Of a stretch of 42,388 nt of DNA, positions 31,792 to 41,683 are shown piece after piece. Positions within the stretch are counted from its first letter, which is position 1; each line of letters opens with the position of its first letter. The notes under the pieces were generated by a model that worked only from the letters and a program-made list of their open reading frames with translations, made no database searches and was not told the DNA's origin. The DNA is from Gemmatimonadota bacterium (lineage in GTDB: Bacteria > Gemmatimonadota > Gemmatimonadetes > Gemmatimonadales > Gemmatimonadaceae): assembly GCA_003223455.1 (NCBI GenBank), contig QHVE01000052.1, positions 41,510 to 83,897 of the forward strand, given 5' to 3'. The translations under genes were made by a program, and so were the position numbers.

Positions 31792-32949
31792 TCAGACCGG
31801 ATGCGCGCCCGGCTTCAGCACCTTCGCCTGATCCTGTGCGCGAATGGAGAGCTCGGAGGCGAGGAAGGTGTGCTGCTGCGGCACCGCTGTCTCGGTGCGA
31901 TTCAGCACGTCGTCGACGAGTTGCTTGCCGTACGGAGTCTCCATCCCCTTGCAGTCGATGTAATTCATCCCCTTCTGATCGACGAGAAAGAGATGATTGC
32001 CGCCCGGTCGGCCGGCGATGTCGACGTACTTGCGCAACTCGATGTAGCCATCGGTCCCGAGGATGGTCATCCGCCCGTCGCCCCATGTGGGCAGCCCATT
32101 CGGGGTGAACCAGTCCATTCGGATGTAGCCGGTGCCGCCGTCGCCGCGCACCATGACGTCGCCGAAGTCCTGAAATTTGGGGTGTTCCGGATGACGGACG
32201 TTCCGCACTTGCGATGCGACGATCTCGCCCGTCGTCGACCCGGTGAAGAAGAGGAACTGGTCGAACTGGTGTGAGCCGATGTCGACGAGGATGCCTCCGT
32301 AGCGAGCGGGATCCCAGAACCACTCGGGACGTGCGGCACCCTTCTGAATGATCTGGTGCGGGCCAAATCCCGCGGTCTGGATCACCGTCCCTATCGCGCC
32401 GGCCTTGACCAACTCGCCCGCCTTCACTGCGGCGGGCACCTCGAGGCGCTCGCTGAACAGGATGGAGTAGATGCGTTTGGTCTCCGCCTGGACCTTTCGC
32501 GCCTCGGCGAGTTGCGCCATCGACGTGATCCCCGGTTTGTCGACCATGAAATCCTTACCCGCCTTCATGACGCGCACGCCGAGGGGAGCGCGTTCGTCGG
32601 GGATACTGGCTGAGACGACGAGTTGGATCGAGGCATCATCGAGGATTGCGCGCTCGTCGTCGACCGCCTTCGCGCTCGGGTAGCGCTTGGCGAAGGGGGC
32701 GCGGAGCTCGGGCTCCTTGATGTAGTACGACACCAGCTCGCCGCCGCCCCTTGTAACCGCGCCGACCTGTCCCGTGATGTGGCCATGATTGGCACCGATG
32801 ACGGCGAAGCGGAGCCGCGCCGCCTGCTTGCCGCGCCGGGCCGTGTGCACCGCCGCCGCGAGCCGCTCCGGCATGGCGGAGAGCGCGGCGAGTCCGGCCA
32901 CCGCCCCGGCCGACGCCTTGACGAGGTCCCTGCGAGTGAGCTTGTCCAT
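31792..32949 (-). CDS. Tat-exported Gfo/Idh/MocA-family oxidoreductase
   Basis: A 385-residue protein with a twin-arginine signal (TRRDLVKASAGAVAGLAALSA). The NAD(P)-binding part starts with LRFAVIGANHGHITGQV, a variant of the GxGxxG motif, and continues with MKAGKDFMVDKPGITSMAQL, which matches the family's EKP segment as DKP. The C-terminal alpha/beta domain follows with GGILVDIGSHQFDQFLFFTG, the conserved G-D-x-G-x-H motif. Exported members such as glucose-fructose oxidoreductase carry a tightly bound cofactor. A periplasmic sugar or sugar-acid conversion is likely but the substrate is unknown. It is divergent from the sugar-acid dehydratase operon by 88 bases. Confidence 0.9.
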   Translation of the reverse strand: MDKLTRRDLVKASAGAVAGLAALSAMPERLAAAVHTARRGKQAARLRFAVIGANHGHITGQVGAVTRGGGELVSYYIKEPELRAPFAKRYPSAKAVDDERAILDDASIQLVVSASIPDERAPLGVRVMKAGKDFMVDKPGITSMAQLAEARKVQAETKRIYSILFSERLEVPAAVKAGELVKAGAIGTVIQTAGFGPHQIIQKGAARPEWFWDPARYGGILVDIGSHQFDQFLFFTGSTTGEIVASQVRNVRHPEHPKFQDFGDVMVRGDGGTGYIRMDWFTPNGLPTWGDGRMTILGTDGYIELRKYVDIAGRPGGNHLFLVDQKGMNYIDCKGMETPYGKQLVDDVLNRTETAVPQQHTFLASELSIRAQDQAKVLKPGAHPV

Positions 32950-33037
32950 GAGCCAGGTGGGTGATGGGTTGTGCGTGTTCTACGCCCGCGCCAGTCAGTC
33001 CGCTGGCGGACGGGCAGTCGAACGCCGACTTTGAGAC

Positions 33038-35092
33038 ATGAAGAAGATGCCACCGATCCCACCCCTGGACGCAGTCCTGGGGACGGCGGCCGCCGTGTCC
33101 GCGGGCCGCCTCGCCGGCGAAGGGCCGGCCGGCAAGCTGCCGTTCACCCCCGAGATGCTGCGCGAGGCGCCGAGCGGCGACCTGTTCGGCCTCACCCAGA
33201 ACGTGGGTATGGGGTGGAGCCCGACGAAGCTCCAGGGCCCCGAGTACGTCATCGTCAGCACGATGGGCGGGCTGCGCGCCGAGGACGGCACCGCGATCGC
33301 GCTCGGGTACCATACCGGACACTGGGAGATCGGCCTGCTCGTGCGCGAGGCGGCGGAGACGCTGCGTGCCGCGGGAGCGGTCCCCTTCTCGGCCTACGTC
33401 AGCGATCCGTGCGACGGCCGTACGCAGGGGACGACGGGGATGTTCGACAGCCTCGCGTACCGCAACGACGCGTCGATCGTGATGCGGCGCCTGATCCGCT
33501 CGCTGCCGACGGCATCGGGGGTGATGGGCATCGCCACGTGCGACAAGGGGTTGCCGGCGACGATGCTCGCCCTCGCGGGTGTGGGGAAGCTGCCGGGCAT
33601 CGTCGTGCCGGGGGGCGTGACGCTGCCGCCGGTGAACGGCGAGGACGCGGGACAGGTGCAGAGCCTCAACGCGCGCTTCTCGCGCGATCTCGTGACGCTC
33701 GACTACGCGCAGACCATGGGATGTCGGGCCTGTGGCTCGTCAGGAGGGGGATGCCAGTTCCTCGGCACCGCGGCGACGTCGCAGGTGGTGGCGGAAGCGT
33801 TCGGGCTCGCGCTGCCGCACAGCGCGCTCGCGCCGAGCGGCGAGCCGGCGTGGATGGAGCTGGGCAGGCGGTCGGCGACGGCGCTCGTGCGGCTGCACGG
33901 GCTCGGCATCACGATCGACAAGATCCTCACGCAGCGCGCGCTCGAGAACGCGATGCTGGTGCACGCCGCGTTCGGTGGATCGACCAATCTGCTGCTGCAC
34001 ATTCCGGCCATCGCGAGGCAGGCGGGGCTGCGACCGCCGACCGTCGAAGACTGGAGCCGGATCAACCGCTCGACACCGCGACTCGTGGACGCGCTGCCGA
34101 ACGGGCCGCGCGGCCATCCCACCGTTCAGGTGTTCATGGCGGGAGGCGTGCCGGAGGTGATGCTCCATCTGCGCGAGATGGGGCTGCTCAACGGCGACGT
34201 GCTCACGGCGACGGGCGATACCCTCGACACGACGCTCGACTGGTGGCGGGACAGCGACCGCCGGCGCGACGCGCGGGCGCGGCTCGCGTCGGGCGCGTCG
34301 GTGATGCCCGACGACGTGATCAAGGATCCGGACTCGGCGCGGCGCGCGGGATTCACGAGCACGGTGGTGTTCCCCGTCGGCAACCTCGCGCCCGAGGGAT
34401 CGGTGCTCAAGGCGACGGCGATCGACGCGTCGGTGGTTGACGACGATCAGGTCTATCGGCACACGGGGCCGGCGCGGGTGTTCGCCGACGAGCGTGAGGC
34501 GATCGCGGCGGTGAAGGGTGGAACGGCGCGGCCGATCAAGCCGGGCGACGTGATCGTGCTGATCGGCAACGGACCGTCGGGGACGGGGATGCAGGAGACG
34601 GCGCAGATCACGACGGCGCTCAAGTATCTGCCGTGGGGGAAGCAGGTCGCGCTGCTCACCGACGGGCGATTCTCCGGCTTCTCGAGCGGCGCGTGCATCG
34701 GCCACATCGGGCCCGAGGCGCTGCAGGGCGGACCGATCTCGCGAGTGCAGGACGACGACCTGATCGAGATCATCGTCGATCGGGGAGACGCGCTGAGCGG
34801 ATCGATCAATCTGGTCGGGGTGCGCGGCGAGCGCGCGTCGCCCGATGCGTGCGCCGAGTTGCTCGCGTCGCGGCCCGTGCATCCCGCGCTGGCGCCGCAC
34901 GCGCAGCTTCCCAACGACACGCGGCTGTGGGCGGCGCTGCAGCGCGCGAGCGGCGGAACGTGGGCCGGCTGCGTCTACGACGTGGATCGCATCATCGAGG
35001 TGCTCGACGCGGGCCTTCGCGCGACGGCGGCAGACGCGTCGAGCGACGATCCGACGCAGGATCACGTGCGATTCACCGGAGCTACGTCATGA
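33038..35092 (+). CDS. IlvD/Edd-family sugar-acid dehydratase, YjhG/YagF (D-xylonate) type
   Basis: A 684-residue protein, close to the roughly 655 residues of the YjhG/YagF branch and longer than IlvD. Iron-sulfur ligands and active-site motifs are present: [27 protein letters not shown] and [18 protein letters not shown]. Late segments [13 protein letters not shown] and [23 protein letters not shown] are family signatures. By homology it removes water from D-xylonate to give 2-keto-3-deoxy-D-xylonate. It is first in an operon with an exported cupin (ATGA overlap) and an FAH-family dehydratase, which could catalyse the next Weimberg step. ATG 33038 is used. Confidence 0.92.
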
Positions 35093-35868
35093 GAGGACTG
35101 CTGCTCGCGCTCGCCGGTGTCGTGCTGACCGCCGCGACGGTCACCGCGCAGGTCGCGCCGGTGAAGTCGGGCGTCTATCACTGGGCCGCGATGCCGCCGG
35201 CAAAGGCGGCCGGCGGACGCGTGGAGCGGGCGGTGTTCATCGGCTCGACGCTCGACCTCGACTCGCTCGACGTACGGGCGATCACGATACCAGCGACCGT
35301 GTCGGCGGACACCGTCGCAGGGCTCGACAGTCTCGAGACGTTCGTGCTGGTGAAGGAGGGGAAGCTGTGGGCGACGCTGAGCGGCGTGAGCCGTTCGCTC
35401 GGTGCAGGGGGTGTCGCCCTGACGCTGCCGGGCGACATGCTCGTGCTGGCGAACACCGGCGGCGTTCCGGCGACGTACTACCGGTTCAGATATCGCTCGA
35501 AAGCGCCGATGGACATGAACCGCGCGCGACAGGCGGGCGGCTCGTTCATGGTCGATTACGCCGACCTGACGGAGAAGCCGACCGCGGTCGGGTTCCGGCG
35601 TGACGTGCTCAATCGACCGACGGCCATGTTCCGGCGATTCGAGTCGCACTGGTCATCCGTGAAGGCAGGAGTCCGCAACCACGCGACCCACACGCACCGC
35701 GCCGACGAATTCATGATGATGACGAAGGGAAACGTCGAGATGCTGATCGGGCAGTACGAGCCGCCGGCGACGATCGGCGATGTCGTGTTCCTCGGCTCGA
35801 TGCTGCCGCATTCCCTGCTGAGCAAGGGCGCTGGACCGGCGGAGTATCTCGTGATCCAGGGGGAGTGA
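35089..35868 (+). CDS. exported bicupin protein
   Basis: A 259-residue protein with a signal peptide ([18 protein letters not shown]). Two cupin domains are visible. The first (about 60-150) lacks a clear metal site. The second carries [21 protein letters not shown] and LPHSLLS, matching the HxHxxxE...H pattern for a metal ion. It overlaps the dehydratase stop as ATGA and the next gene as TGATG, so it is translationally coupled on both sides. Export is surprising between two presumably cytoplasmic enzymes. It may bind or isomerise a sugar acid outside the cytoplasm; this is inference. Confidence 0.85.
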
Positions 35869-36704
35869 TGCATCTCTGGCGAACGAGGGAGGGGATCCGG
35901 CTCAACGACGGGCAGCACACGCAGGTGATCCAGGCGGATTGGGACGCGCTGATCAATCACGAGGATCTCGGACAATTCCTGTCCGGCCTGATGCGCGAGC
36001 CTCACGACAGCGGACCGCTGGTGATGAACGATCCCGACGTGGACGTCCTTCCACCCATCGGCACGCAGGAGGTGTGGGCGGCGGGCGTCACGTACTTCCG
36101 CAGCCGCACGGCGCGCATGGAGGAATCGAAGGACGCCGGCGGCGGCACGTTTTACGATCGCGTCTACGAGGCCGATCGTCCCGAGCTGTTCTTCAAGGCC
36201 TCCCCGTGGCGCGTGCGCGGCCCGCGCGCGGGCATTCGCATTCGCAAGGACGCGAAGTGGAACGTTCCCGAGCCGGAGCTCGCGCTGTGCGTGAATGCTC
36301 GCGGCGAGATCATCGGCTACACGATCGGCAACGACGTGAGCTCACGCGACATCGAGGGGGAGAACCCTCTCTACCTGCCGCAGGCGAAGGTGTACGACGG
36401 CTCCTGTGCGCTCGGCCCGGGCCTCTACGTGTCGAGGGATCTGCTGCCGCCCGAGACGGGAATCGCGATTCGCATCACGCGTGGCCACGACATCGTATTC
36501 GAGGGCCAGACGACGCTGGCGCAGATGCGGCGGAAGCCCGAGGAGCTGGTCGAGTACCTGTATCGAGAGACGAGCTTTCCGTCGGGATGCATCCTGCTCA
36601 CGGGGACGGGGATCATCCCACCGGACGCGTTCACGCTGCAGTCGGCGGACCTGGTGGAGATCACGATTGAACCCATCGGGACGCTGTCCAACGTAGTGGA
36701 GTAG
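35868..36704 (+). CDS. fumarylacetoacetate hydrolase-family protein, probable 2-keto-3-deoxy-pentonate dehydratase
   Basis: A 278-residue protein. The FAH domain (about 65-275) contains [17 protein letters not shown], the metal-binding acidic [34 protein letters not shown] and [15 protein letters not shown]. Members next to sugar-acid dehydratases often convert 2-keto-3-deoxy-pentonates to 2-oxoglutarate semialdehyde in the Weimberg route, as XylX does. GGGGGAG precedes the ATG, which overlaps the cupin stop. A GTG three bases earlier is possible. The 17-base gap to the convergent gene contains only a four-base stem. Confidence 0.88.
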
Positions 36705-36721
36705 AGGAACACCTCGTGCGG

Positions 36722-37747
36722 TCAGCGGGCGGGCCGCTCCCACCGCCCGCTGTCCGCCGAGCGGAACAGTGCGTCGATCACGGCCATGTTCGCCACCGCG
36801 TCCTCGACGCTCACGGGGACGCCGCGCTCGCCTCGGACGGCGGCGGCGAAGTTGTCGCCCTGCAAGGTGTACTGATCGACCTTCGGGAACTCGATCGTCT
36901 CGGCCGAGCGGTCGCCGAGCTCGCGGCCGTCGTCGACGAAGATGCGGCAGGGGCGATCGTTGGGCGCATTGAACGGGATCTGCACCTCGATGCGACCCGA
37001 CGTGCCGTGAAGCTGCATGCGCTGATAGTGGACGAGCTGCATGGCGCTGGTGAACGTCGCCTGGCCGCCCGACGGAAAGCGCAGCAGACCCGAGACGACG
37101 CGGTCGACCCGGAGCTCGGGATCGCGATCGATGACGGCGACCGCCGCCTCCGGCTCCTCGCCGAACAGCCAGCGCGCCATCGTGATGGGATAGCAGCCGA
37201 CGTCCATCAGCCCGCCGCCGCCCCACTCGGGGACACTGCGCACGTCCTTCGGATCGCGCTTGAAGTACGCGAAGTGCCCGGCGACGAGGCGCAGGTCGCC
37301 GATGCGGCCCTGGTGTACCAGATCGCGCACGGCGAGCCACTGCGGATGGTTGCGCACCATGAACGCCTCGCCGATGCGGACGCCGGTGCGGTCGCGCACA
37401 TCGAGCAACCGACGCGCCTCGTCGGCCGACAGCGCGATCGGCTTCTCGCAGAGCACGTGCTTGCCCGCCTCGGCAGCTCGGATCGTCCACGGGACGTGCA
37501 GGTGGTTCGGCAGGGGATTGTAGATCGCTTCGACGTCGGGGTCGGCGAGCAGCTCCTCGTACGATCCGTACGCGCGTTCGACGCCGAGCTCGCGTGCCGC
37601 ACGCTGCGCCTTGCCGAGGTTCCGCGAGGCGATGGCGACGACGTCGCATCGAACTCCACGCTGCATCGCGGGCACTACCTTCTTCACGGCGATGTTCGCG
37701 GCGCCGAGGATCCCCCAGCGCACGGGTTTGCTGATCTCGACTACCAT
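36722..37747 (-). CDS. Gfo/Idh/MocA-family dehydrogenase, possible D-xylose dehydrogenase
   Basis: A 341-residue cytoplasmic protein. VRWGILGAANIAVKKVVPAM is the NAD(P)-binding start, and AGKHVLCEKPIALSADEARRL has the catalytic EKP lysine. GGGLMDVGCYPITMARWLFG is the conserved substrate-side helix. It groups by pattern with NADP-dependent D-xylose/glucose dehydrogenases, whose product would be xylonolactone. It overlaps the aldo/keto reductase gene by seven bases at the end of the alpha-xylosidase operon. No lactonase is in the window. Sugar specificity is inferred from context only. Confidence 0.88.
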   Translation of the reverse strand: MVVEISKPVRWGILGAANIAVKKVVPAMQRGVRCDVVAIASRNLGKAQRAARELGVERAYGSYEELLADPDVEAIYNPLPNHLHVPWTIRAAEAGKHVLCEKPIALSADEARRLLDVRDRTGVRIGEAFMVRNHPQWLAVRDLVHQGRIGDLRLVAGHFAYFKRDPKDVRSVPEWGGGGLMDVGCYPITMARWLFGEEPEAAVAVIDRDPELRVDRVVSGLLRFPSGGQATFTSAMQLVHYQRMQLHGTSGRIEVQIPFNAPNDRPCRIFVDDGRELGDRSAETIEFPKVDQYTLQGDNFAAAVRGERGVPVSVEDAVANMAVIDALFRSADSGRWERPAR

Positions 37748-38727
37748 CGGTGGTGCACCAGCGGGCGGATCGACCGCGTGTAGATCTCGCGCACCGTCGT
37801 CATCTGCTCGGGCGTCAGCGGGGGAAGATCGGCCGCCCGGGCGTTGTCCTCCGTCTGCTGGACGTTCTTCGCACCGGGGATCGCGGCCGACACTTCAGGG
37901 AACATGAGAATCCACCGCAGCGCGAGCTGCGCCATGCTCGCGCCAGAGGGGACGAGCGCACGGAGCTCGTCGACGGCCTCGAGGCCGGTGTCGTAGTCGA
38001 CGCCACTGAACGTCTCGCCGACGTCGAACGCCTCGCCGTGGCGATTGTAGTTGCGATGATCGCGCAGCTCGAAGGTCGAGTCGCGACGGAGCTTTCCGCT
38101 CAGCAGGCCGCTGGCCAGGGGCACGCGGGCGAGGATGCCGATCCGCTTCTCGCGCACGACGGGGAAGAGCTCCTCGGCCGGCTTGAGCCGGAACATGTTG
38201 AAGATGATCTGGATCGACTGCACGTTCGGATAACGCGCCGCACGCAAGGCTTCTTCGACGTACTCGACGCTCACGCCGTAGAAGCGCAGCTTTCCATCCG
38301 CTACCAGGTCATCGAGGATGCCGAACACCTCGGGCATGTCGTAGACGTCGGGGGGCGGGCAGTGCAGCTGCAGCAGATCGAGCGCGTCGGTCTCGAGGTT
38401 ACGCAGGCTCCGCTCGACGAACGCGGAGAGGTTCTTCCGGGTGAAGCCTTCGGGCACGTGCGGGTCGAGGCGGCGCCCGGCCTTCGTGGCGACGATGATC
38501 TCGTCCTTCCGCTCCCGGCGGAGCCGGCCGATGAGTTGCTCGGAGTGTCCGTTGCCGTAGACGTCGGCCGTGTCGATGAAATTCACGCCGAGATCGATCG
38601 CGCGGTTCAGCGAACGCATCGACTCGGCGTCGTCGGTCTTTCCCCAGGCATCGCCGCCGATGGCCCACGCACCGTAGCTGACGGTGGAGATGTTCCAGCC
38701 GGTGCGGCCGAGAGGGCGGTAGTCCAT
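37741..38727 (-). CDS. aldo/keto reductase
   Basis: A 328-residue protein with an (alpha/beta)8 NADPH-dependent reductase pattern. Tetrad candidates are Asp and Tyr in NFIDTADVYGNGHSEQLIG, Lys in IIVATKAGRR, and His in DLLQLHCPP. The end SAAIPGAKNVQQTEDNARAADLPPLTPEQ is the conserved cofactor-binding strand of this AKR group. It should reduce sugar aldehydes or ketones, or oxidise the reverse way. AGGAG precedes ATG 38727. It is coupled to the Gfo/Idh gene downstream. Confidence 0.93.
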   Translation of the reverse strand: MDYRPLGRTGWNISTVSYGAWAIGGDAWGKTDDAESMRSLNRAIDLGVNFIDTADVYGNGHSEQLIGRLRRERKDEIIVATKAGRRLDPHVPEGFTRKNLSAFVERSLRNLETDALDLLQLHCPPPDVYDMPEVFGILDDLVADGKLRFYGVSVEYVEEALRAARYPNVQSIQIIFNMFRLKPAEELFPVVREKRIGILARVPLASGLLSGKLRRDSTFELRDHRNYNRHGEAFDVGETFSGVDYDTGLEAVDELRALVPSGASMAQLALRWILMFPEVSAAIPGAKNVQQTEDNARAADLPPLTPEQMTTVREIYTRSIRPLVHHRW

Positions 38728-38746: not shown

Positions 38747-39358
38747 CTAGTGCTTCGTCATGCCGAGTCCGATCTGCAGGGCGTTGCCGTGCACGGAACC
38801 GGTGATCCCGGACATGTGGCCCGGGGCCACCCCGAAGAACGTGGCGTACGGCGTCCAGGAAAAATACTTCTTTGCTCGGTAATCATAGCCGACCCCGAGC
38901 TGATAGCCGCCGGAGACACCAGAGCGATAGAAAACGCCGGTCGTCCTGTCACTGATTCGGGTCTCGAGAATGCCGAGGCCGATGCCGGGCGCGACGAAGA
39001 AACCCCGCTCGACGCGAGGATACCACTGCGCGACCATGTCGATCGTGGCGAGCATCTCGCGGACTTCGGATTGAGACGCCGCGGTGATCGTGCCTGCCCG
39101 CCGCCAGTTGCTCACCTCGCCAGCAAGGATCAGGTCGGGACGGAGCGCGCCACCGAAGCGAGCGTACACCGACACTCCGGCCCCGTTCGCGCACGCGGGG
39201 CATTGGACACCGGCCACTCCAGCACCGATGCCGGCGCTCGCGGTGAAGCCGTCGCGGAGCTGAGGAAGAGACTGCGCGCGCGCCTCGGTCGCGCACACGA
39301 GCGTGATGGCTGCGGCGCGAAGAACGCAGGACCACATCCTCGACACGACTTCGGGCAT
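38747..39358 (-). CDS. outer-membrane beta-barrel-like protein
   Basis: A 203-residue protein with a signal peptide (SCVLRAAAITLVCATEARAQ). Alternating strands follow: GFTASAGIGAGVAGVQC, GVSVYARFGGALRPDLILAGEVSNW, GFFVAPGIGLGILETRI, GVSGGYQLGVGYDYRA and GNALQIGLGMTKH, the final aromatic-poor strand ending at the C-terminus. This fits a small eight-stranded OmpA-like barrel. Two Cys are in CPAC. GAGGTGAG just before ATG 39358 supports the start. It sits between the alpha-xylosidase and the reductase and could be a surface or porin partner. Function unknown. Confidence 0.72.
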   Translation of the reverse strand: MPEVVSRMWSCVLRAAAITLVCATEARAQSLPQLRDGFTASAGIGAGVAGVQCPACANGAGVSVYARFGGALRPDLILAGEVSNWRRAGTITAASQSEVREMLATIDMVAQWYPRVERGFFVAPGIGLGILETRISDRTTGVFYRSGVSGGYQLGVGYDYRAKKYFSWTPYATFFGVAPGHMSGITGSVHGNALQIGLGMTKH

Positions 39359-39360
39359 GC

Positions 39361-41683
39361 TCACCTCGCTGAAGGAGTGATGCTGGGGCGCGTGACTCGC
39401 CAGTTGACGCGACCAGCCAGTGGATCGGCCATGAGGCCCGTTCCGCTCACGCGAAGAGTCTGTACCGCGCCACCGGGCTGAATGAACGTCCCCTCCGCCT
39501 CGCCGCCGTCCGAGGAGAAGACGCGGAGCTCGATGCTCCTCCAGTCGATCAGCGCCGTGCTCTGTGCGACGGCGACATGGGGCAACACGGTGTGGTCCTT
39601 CACGAGCAGCACGATCGGCACCGTGCCGGCGGCGATGTCGTGCCATCGCGCACCAGCATACGCGCGCCCCGACTGATAGTCGATCCACGTGCCCGGCGGC
39701 AGGTACACGCGCCGGCTCGTCGCCGAATCGGTGAACAGCGGCGCGACCAGCAGGCTCGCTCCGAGCATGTACTCGTCCTCGATCGTCCACGACGTCGGAT
39801 CGTTGGGATACTCGAAGAAGAGCGTGCGCAGCATCGGCCATCCGCGCGCCGAGGCGACGTGCGCCTGCGCGTAGATGTACGGCATGAGCGAGTAGCGCAG
39901 GCCGAGCCCGTTCTGCCAGTCCTTCACCATCGCGTCGTCGTAGCCCCACGGCTCGCGCGGCGGCGCGCCGTGCGTGCGCATGTGCGACGTGAGCGCGCCG
40001 AACGCCATCCAGCGTCGATAGAGGTCGCGCGGTGCGCGGTTCACGAACCCGCCGACGTCGTGGCTCCAGAAGGTGAAGCCCGAGAGGCCGAACGACAGCC
40101 CACCGCGCAGCTCGGCCGCCATCGCCGAGTTGGTATTCTCGGCGTCGCCGCCCCAATGGAGCGGATAGCGCTGACTCCCCGCCCACGCGCTGCGCCCCCA
40201 GATGATGCCGTCGCCGGTGATCTCCTTCGTGAGGCTCCACACCGCGTCGTTGTAGCGCACGGGATAGAGGTTGTGCTCGTACCACCCCGTACGGCCATTG
40301 GCATAGATCCCCTCGAGCGGAGCGCCCTCGCCGAAGTCCGCCTTGATCACGCTCACGCCCATGCGCAGCAGCGCGCCGAGCTTGGCCCGATACCACGCCA
40401 CCGCCTTCGGGTTCGTGAAGTCGAGCACCGCGTCCTCGGTGGCGAGGCGTCCACCCGGGTCCTTCACGGCGAGGCCCTGATCGACCAGCTCCTTCCAGAG
40501 CGCGTTCTTGGGGGTGAAGTACGTGTACTGCCAGAGGCTGACGTGGAAGCCGTCCTTCTTCAGGTCGGCGATCATCCTGGCCGGATCGGTGAAGCGCGTC
40601 TTCGACAACCGGTAGTCGCTGCGCCAGTCGGTCTCGAACCAGCCGGTGTCGAGATGCAGCACGTCGGCCGGCACCTTGTACTGCCGGAGCTTGGCGGCGA
40701 CGTCGCGGACTTCGGCCTCGGACTTGTACGTGATGCGGCTCATCCAGAGCCCGAACGACCAGAGCGGCGGCACCGGGCTCCGGCCGGTGAGAGCGGTGTA
40801 CTCGGAGACGACGTCCTTCGGCTCGCCGAGGAAGACGAAGATGTCCATCATCTCGTCGCCGCTGTAGATCGTGTGATGCGCGTCGTACTCGGCGCCGACG
40901 TCGAAGGCGACGGGCGCGCTCGTGTGGACGAACATGCCGTAGCCGCGACTGCTGACGAAGAAGGGAACCGCCTTGTACTGGAGCCGGCCCTGAACCCCCA
41001 TCGCGTCGCGGAGGTACGCGAGCACGCGCTGGCCGCGCTTGTTCAGCCGCGTGAACGACTCGCCGAAGCCGTAGATACGCGGGATCGGAGAGGTGCGTGG
41101 TACGCGTCAAGAGTCTGCCAGTGGCATCATAGACGGCGACGTCCCATGGGTTGCGGCGGATGACGACGCGACCGAAGGCGCTCGTGTAGCTGACGACGCT
41201 GTCGCCGTTCTCGACGCGCCACGAGCGGTCCGTCGGCACGGGGCCGGCGAGCATGAGCGAGCGCTCGCCGTGCATCATCGCGGCAGGGAGATCGCGCGTG
41301 GACAGGCGCAGCCGCAGCGTGCGCGGACTCACGAAGGAGATCTCGAACGGCAGCACCGGATCGCGGTCGTACTCCGTACCGGGAAACTCGGTGGGCTGCG
41401 CGCGCGAGTAGACGACGTCCGTCTTCTCGAACGAGTGACCGGGGCCGAGCGTGTAGCGATCCCACTGGAGCGTGCCGCGTCCGGTGGTGGCGTCGAACGC
41501 CGTGAGCTTGCTCGCGACGAAGACCGGTTGGAGCGGCTTCCTGAAGTCGTCGCCCGCGTCGACGACGTCGCCGAGCTGGCCGTTGCCCTGTTGGGCGTGG
41601 GAAAGCGAAGGCAGGGCGGGGACGGCGAGCACGATCAAACACAGCGCGAGCGCCGAGCGAACGCGCTGAAGCCGAACGGTCAT
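39361..41683 (-). pseudogene. GH31 alpha-xylosidase (YicI type) with internal frameshift
   Basis: The N-terminal part (from ATG 41683, signal peptide MTVRLQRVRSALALCLIVLA...) runs in one frame up to TTHLSDP at about 41083. The rest, from PRIYGFGESFTRLNKRG to the stop at 39361, is in a frame one base further on. The downstream frame has a TGA at 41107-41109, so the shift lies between about 41106 and 41080. The second part has the YicI catalytic residues: nucleophile Asp in IKADFGEG, acid/base Asp in LHWGGD, and FTFWSHDVGGF. In relatives I recall 30 to 40 extra residues between HLSD and the YGFGESF motif, so an internal deletion of about 100 bases is likely. It may be a real mutation or an assembly error. 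Intact, it would cut terminal alpha-xylose, for example from xyloglucan fragments. Confidence 0.85.

Follow-up and report, generated by a model that had tools for sequence, protein, structure and literature searches.

A 95-base internal deletion probably inactivates a GH31 glycosidase gene beside putative xylonate-pathway genes in a Gemmatimonadota bacterium

A GH31 gene lies in two reading frames next to a putative xylose/xylonate cluster

We analysed a window of 42,388 nucleotides from a Gemmatimonadota bacterium; its right end (42388) coincides with that of contig C11. Between an ATG at 41683 and a stop at 39361, the minus strand carries a GH31 gene in two halves that are both well conserved but stand in different frames (Table 1). 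The normal GH31 N-terminal region is present up to ...LLTRTTHLSDPA, the last codon ending at 41078, and the next family motif, RIYGFGESFTRLNKRG, follows directly after TTHLSDPA in the other frame (CGT 41079–41077, ATC 41076–41074). From this motif, the C-terminal frame runs uninterrupted down to the stop at 39361. A sequence-only reading had recognized a broken gene from the change of frame, the TGA and the sudden switch from TTHLSDPA to RIYGFGESFTRLNKRG, and each of these features is present in the sequence. That reading had also placed the junction within 41060–41110, which agrees with alignment to relatives (41077|41076, minus strand), although its narrower limit of about 41080 is off by 3–4 bases.

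The adjoining stretch, 33035–38727, looks like an oxidative xylose/xylonate pathway cluster. As genes for a D-xylonate dehydratase, a D-xylose 1-dehydrogenase-like oxidoreductase and a fumarylacetoacetate hydrolase (FAH)-fold protein lie nearby, the neighbourhood favours xylose as the probable substrate context. In the Gemmatimonadetes MAG SH_69_11 (L049), an intact GH31 frame is followed by aldo/keto reductase, Gfo/Idh and FAH genes in the same order. Downstream of the GH31 gene in the window is a 187-codon ORF (38747–39310) without a Pfam or NCBIfam match. Its identity to the L049 counterpart is only 29%, compared with 90.5% for the flanking aldo/keto reductase, and it may be either fast-evolving or replaced. 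A GNAT gene at the contig end (41688–42302) had no match in any of 80 related loci at E ≤ 1e-10, and its synteny therefore lends no support.

Table 1. Coordinates of the GH31 gene, its junction and reading frames, and the neighbouring genes (positions in the window)
Feature	Position	Strand	Remarks
D-xylonate dehydratase, YjhG/YagF family	33035..35089	+	intact; 1035.4 bits, cut-off 808.15
Fumarylacetoacetate hydrolase-fold protein	35604..36701	+	possibly a sugar-acid pathway enzyme
Gfo/Idh/MocA oxidoreductase	36725..37894	-	best NCBIfam model D-xylose 1-dehydrogenase, below cut-off
Aldo/keto reductase	37741..38727	-	L049 neighbour 90.5% identical
GH31 N-terminal half	41078..41683	-	202 codons, ATG to ...TTHLSDPA; signal-peptide-like start; PF13802 positions 1-79
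GH31 C-terminal half, other frame	39361..41079	-	RIYGFGES... to stop; end of PF13802, complete TIM barrel PF01055, C-terminal domain PF21365
Junction	41076..41077	-	95 bases of five close relatives absent between base 41077 and base 41076
TGA	41107..41109	-	upstream of and in frame with the C-terminal half; N-terminal-half coding DNA read out of frame
Shifted open frame	38747..41683	-	978 codons from the true ATG; catalytic domain read in the wrong frame, continuing into the 187-codon ORF downstream
Longest internal-start ORF of the C-terminal half	39361..41025	-	GTG, 554 aa; signal peptide and the larger part of the N-terminal domain absent

Thirty-one conserved codons and two bases are missing at the junction

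We aligned the DNA with five close relatives (L005, L006, L007, L008 and L009) that are 75–87% identical to the C-terminal half. When lengths of 88–102 bases were scanned, the best-fitting deletion was 95 bases with the same breakpoint, 41077/41076, in all five, and a separate alignment with four of them (L008 left out) placed a 95-base gap at the same site. Because 95 bases amount to 31 codons plus two bases, a single event accounts for the missing segment and the frameshift alike. The relatives carry 31 residues between ...DPA and RIYGFGES, such as the block SYLPYTPFSFVRRARDMGRTAAASFDLAPDE. A single internal loss of some 100 bases had been proposed beforehand to explain both the missing residues and the shift, together with a guess of 30–40 residues between the two motifs; the alignments bear out the loss, and the 31 residues lie within the guessed range.

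To a wider set of 81 loci, consisting of the best 80 of 271 confirmed relatives from a genome contig scan plus L008, the same comparison was applied. Two of these, L060 and L069, were set aside because their contigs start within the gene, and all 79 evaluable loci that remain keep the block (27–33 residues). Its length, measured in 77 homologues, was 31–33 residues in 76 and 27 in one (L097); L066 and L124 were read separately, and the block is present in both. Homologues without the extra residues, which the sequence-only reading had named as the finding that would speak against a deletion, did not occur. With the block kept throughout the 79 evaluable homologues, its absence from the window gene is far beyond chance. 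Single-base errors often cause split genes in draft assemblies, and such an error in an otherwise normal gene would be the commonplace explanation of two frames; however, with 95 further bases at this site in each of the five relatives and the block in every evaluable homologue, the alignments refute it and leave it a negligible probability. Relocation of the block within the genome was likewise rejected, as no copy was found by DNA or protein search of the genome, the best chance matches having E values of 9.5e-4 over 26 bases (DNA) and 1.38 (protein). Thus, the frame is interrupted in a gene that also lacks a family-wide conserved segment, the combination taken here to mark a pseudogene (5/5 pairwise comparisons; 79/79 homologues).

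The breakpoints share at most a possible three- or four-base microhomology

A 9-base direct repeat, GATCCCGCG, had been suggested at the breakpoints. This suggestion is not supported by the nearest relative, L005, which has GACGAGCGC before the right breakpoint. Only GCG is shared between the right flank in L005 (GACGAGCGC|ATT) and the left flank GCGT; with CGT as the lost Arg codon, the microhomology would extend to GCGT at most. In neither the window stretch nor L005 is the site flanked by correctly spaced direct repeats of 8 bases or longer. A longer repeat, GCGTATCT, which supposes an ancestor one codon shorter, is not relied on because none of the 77 homologues measured has a 30-residue form. 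Judged from the relatives, the natural reading and likely mutational route is an illegitimate deletion that used a microhomology of only 3–4 bases, through slippage or a repair process resembling end joining.

The deletion falls in the N-terminal domain of a possible alpha-xylosidase

The GH31 TIM barrel (PF01055) matched with 273 bits against a curated cut-off of 23.5, covering profile positions 2–327 of 328, and the C-terminal domain (PF21365) matched with 81.7 bits (cut-off 24.4). In contrast, the N-terminal mutarotase-like domain (PF13802) is not complete in one frame: positions 1–79 match in the N-terminal half (24.9 bits, below the cut-off of 27) and 119–184 in the C-terminal half, whereas the match is unbroken from 1 to 184 in the intact relative L006. 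Profile positions 80–118 are lost from the window gene, and the lost block falls there. It corresponds to residues 212–242 of the intact L050 protein and spans two predicted strands (E220–224 and E229–237), according to a structure prediction of low confidence (mean pLDDT 63.6, 13 sequences) that gives only a rough placement of the block. The deletion removes 31 codons of the N-terminal beta-sandwich domain plus two bases, so that the whole catalytic barrel is read out of frame.

The alpha-xylosidase equivalog NF007940 (YicI-type) is the best NCBIfam model for the window gene, though its score (496.7 bits for the C-terminal half) is below the cut-off of 606, which intact relatives L006 and L008 also miss (514.7 and 504.1 bits). 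The name alpha-xylosidase, assigned from the DNA at the outset, is made plausible by the nearby D-xylonate dehydratase gene, but is unproven, given that even intact relatives stay under the equivalog cut-off, a point that also sets them apart from YicI-type enzymes. The original enzyme was probably an alpha-xylosidase that would have fed the xylose/xylonate pathway. The closest solved relative of intact L006 is PDB 5f7c ('Alpha-glucosidase', E 8.2e-134), and E. coli YicI (PDB 1we5/1xsi/2f2h) is also close (E 1.3e-114). Like the YicI-type and 5f7c enzymes, the intact homologues combine a TIM barrel with a mutarotase-like domain on its N-terminal side and a further C-terminal domain; the window gene differs in missing 31 conserved residues of the N-terminal domain, at which point its frame changes. 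Two other GH31 genes in the genome are only 28–29% identical to it, indicating there is no close backup. Nothing on this gene appeared among the literature listings and abstract openings consulted. Close orthologues (at least 75% identity) are patchily distributed, being present in 6 of 59 other genomes searched and in 3 of the 9 others in the genus.

Both halves look constrained, as expected of a recent break

No second lesion was seen in either half. The C-terminal half aligned with L005 without a gap over 572 codons at an NG86 dN/dS of 0.156, and its values ranged from 0.125 to 0.364 between window and relatives and from 0.110 to 0.362 among the intact relatives themselves. For the N-terminal half, the corresponding ranges were 0.179–0.442 and 0.078–0.423, with the L005 comparison covering only 72 codons as the L005 contig begins inside the gene. 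The value of 0.442, against L008, is slightly greater than the highest between intact relatives (0.423) and may be a weak hint of relaxed selection at most. In a relative-rate comparison over 565 codons with L006 as outgroup, the window lineage had 21 amino-acid changes versus 37 in L005, and 48 synonymous changes versus 49. Relaxed selection after inactivation was thus not detected by dN/dS or relative rate, both of which resembled those of intact relatives; since a recent break would give the same result, this does not decide the matter. By these measures, both halves appear to be under normal purifying selection. Normal constraint and no second lesion would mean that the break is recent relative to the split from L005, or else that it is not fixed in the organism or is confined to the assembly.

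If the latter, the deletion would be an assembly artefact, or a minority variant that the assembler followed, and the organism's usual gene would be intact. The genome is a draft of 127 contigs, and contig C11 ends 1.3 kb away from the lesion, in a position where assemblies can be weaker; moreover, neither half shows decay and the gene still looks fully constrained. On the other hand, a 95-base loss between breakpoints that share almost no repeat is unlike the usual collapse or homopolymer error, and short-read assemblers normally do not join across 95 bases on a 3–4 base overlap. Among the 29 other window ORFs scanned (24 with any Pfam match, 5 with none), no further split Pfam domain was found, so errors do not pervade the assembly in this region; one Gfo/Idh/MocA protein at 31795–32979 is matched in Pfam by its C-terminal domain only. 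With no repeat that could have collapsed and no other Pfam domain seen split, we regard an origin in the assembly as unlikely, albeit with a chance that deserves to be kept in mind.

What we favour, with considerable confidence, is a secreted GH31 glycosidase gene inactivated by an ordinary, apparently recent, loss-of-function internal deletion. The 95 bases are missing, the frame is shifted, a conserved block is gone and the rest of the gene is intact. We infer that this junction is present in the living genome, where the gene would very probably be dead. It resembles ordinary bacterial pseudogenes that arose by a short out-of-frame deletion in its single lesion, recognisable halves, lost conserved segment and the lack of a copy elsewhere; nothing sets it apart from them except a shifted frame that is open for 978 codons.

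The long shifted frame probably reflects codon context

In a feature absent from the sequence-only reading, the N-terminal frame stays open past the junction down to 38747 and enters the next ORF in frame. Across the catalytic half, this shifted frame contains no stop codon, compared with 7.8 expected from codon shuffling. However, shifted-frame stops were below the shuffle mean in all 18 long window ORFs, of which a few may be extended or not real genes, with P ≤ 0.05 in nine (the GH31 ORF among them), and in 5/5 intact relatives. A special meaning of the frame was rejected because of this similar deficit, and we read it as a probable codon-context habit of these genomes that is extreme here.

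A shortened enzyme could in principle still be made if the C-terminal half were translated from the internal GTG at 41025 or by frameshifting, and were functional without the block. Its barrel is complete and conserved, as is its C-terminal domain, and constraint is apparently undiminished, yet a recent break would leave constraint looking alike. None of the 79 evaluable homologues lacks the block, and the N-terminal frame runs on past the junction, which gives no opening for translational coupling. The catalytic half can be started only at GTG 41025 or later, giving a product without a signal peptide and with a mere remnant of the N-terminal domain. Together with the loss of the two strands predicted in the block, this suggests no active enzyme would be expected from the locus, and we consider a functional shortened enzyme very improbable. 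Slightly less credible still is that expression of the 978-codon frame, or of the internally started C-terminal half, yields a new chimeric or cytosolic protein in place of a dead gene.

If the deletion is real, the lineage would recently have lost a secreted enzyme that releases sugar but kept the linked genes of the xylonate pathway, and annotation should not credit it with GH31 sugar-releasing activity. Beyond the source genome, this would have little significance. Caution is warranted in automatic annotation, which could mistake either the long shifted frame or the well-conserved barrel ORF for a normal gene. More generally, codon shuffling predicts more +2-frame stops than these coding sequences contain, and long shifted frames are easily taken for genes.
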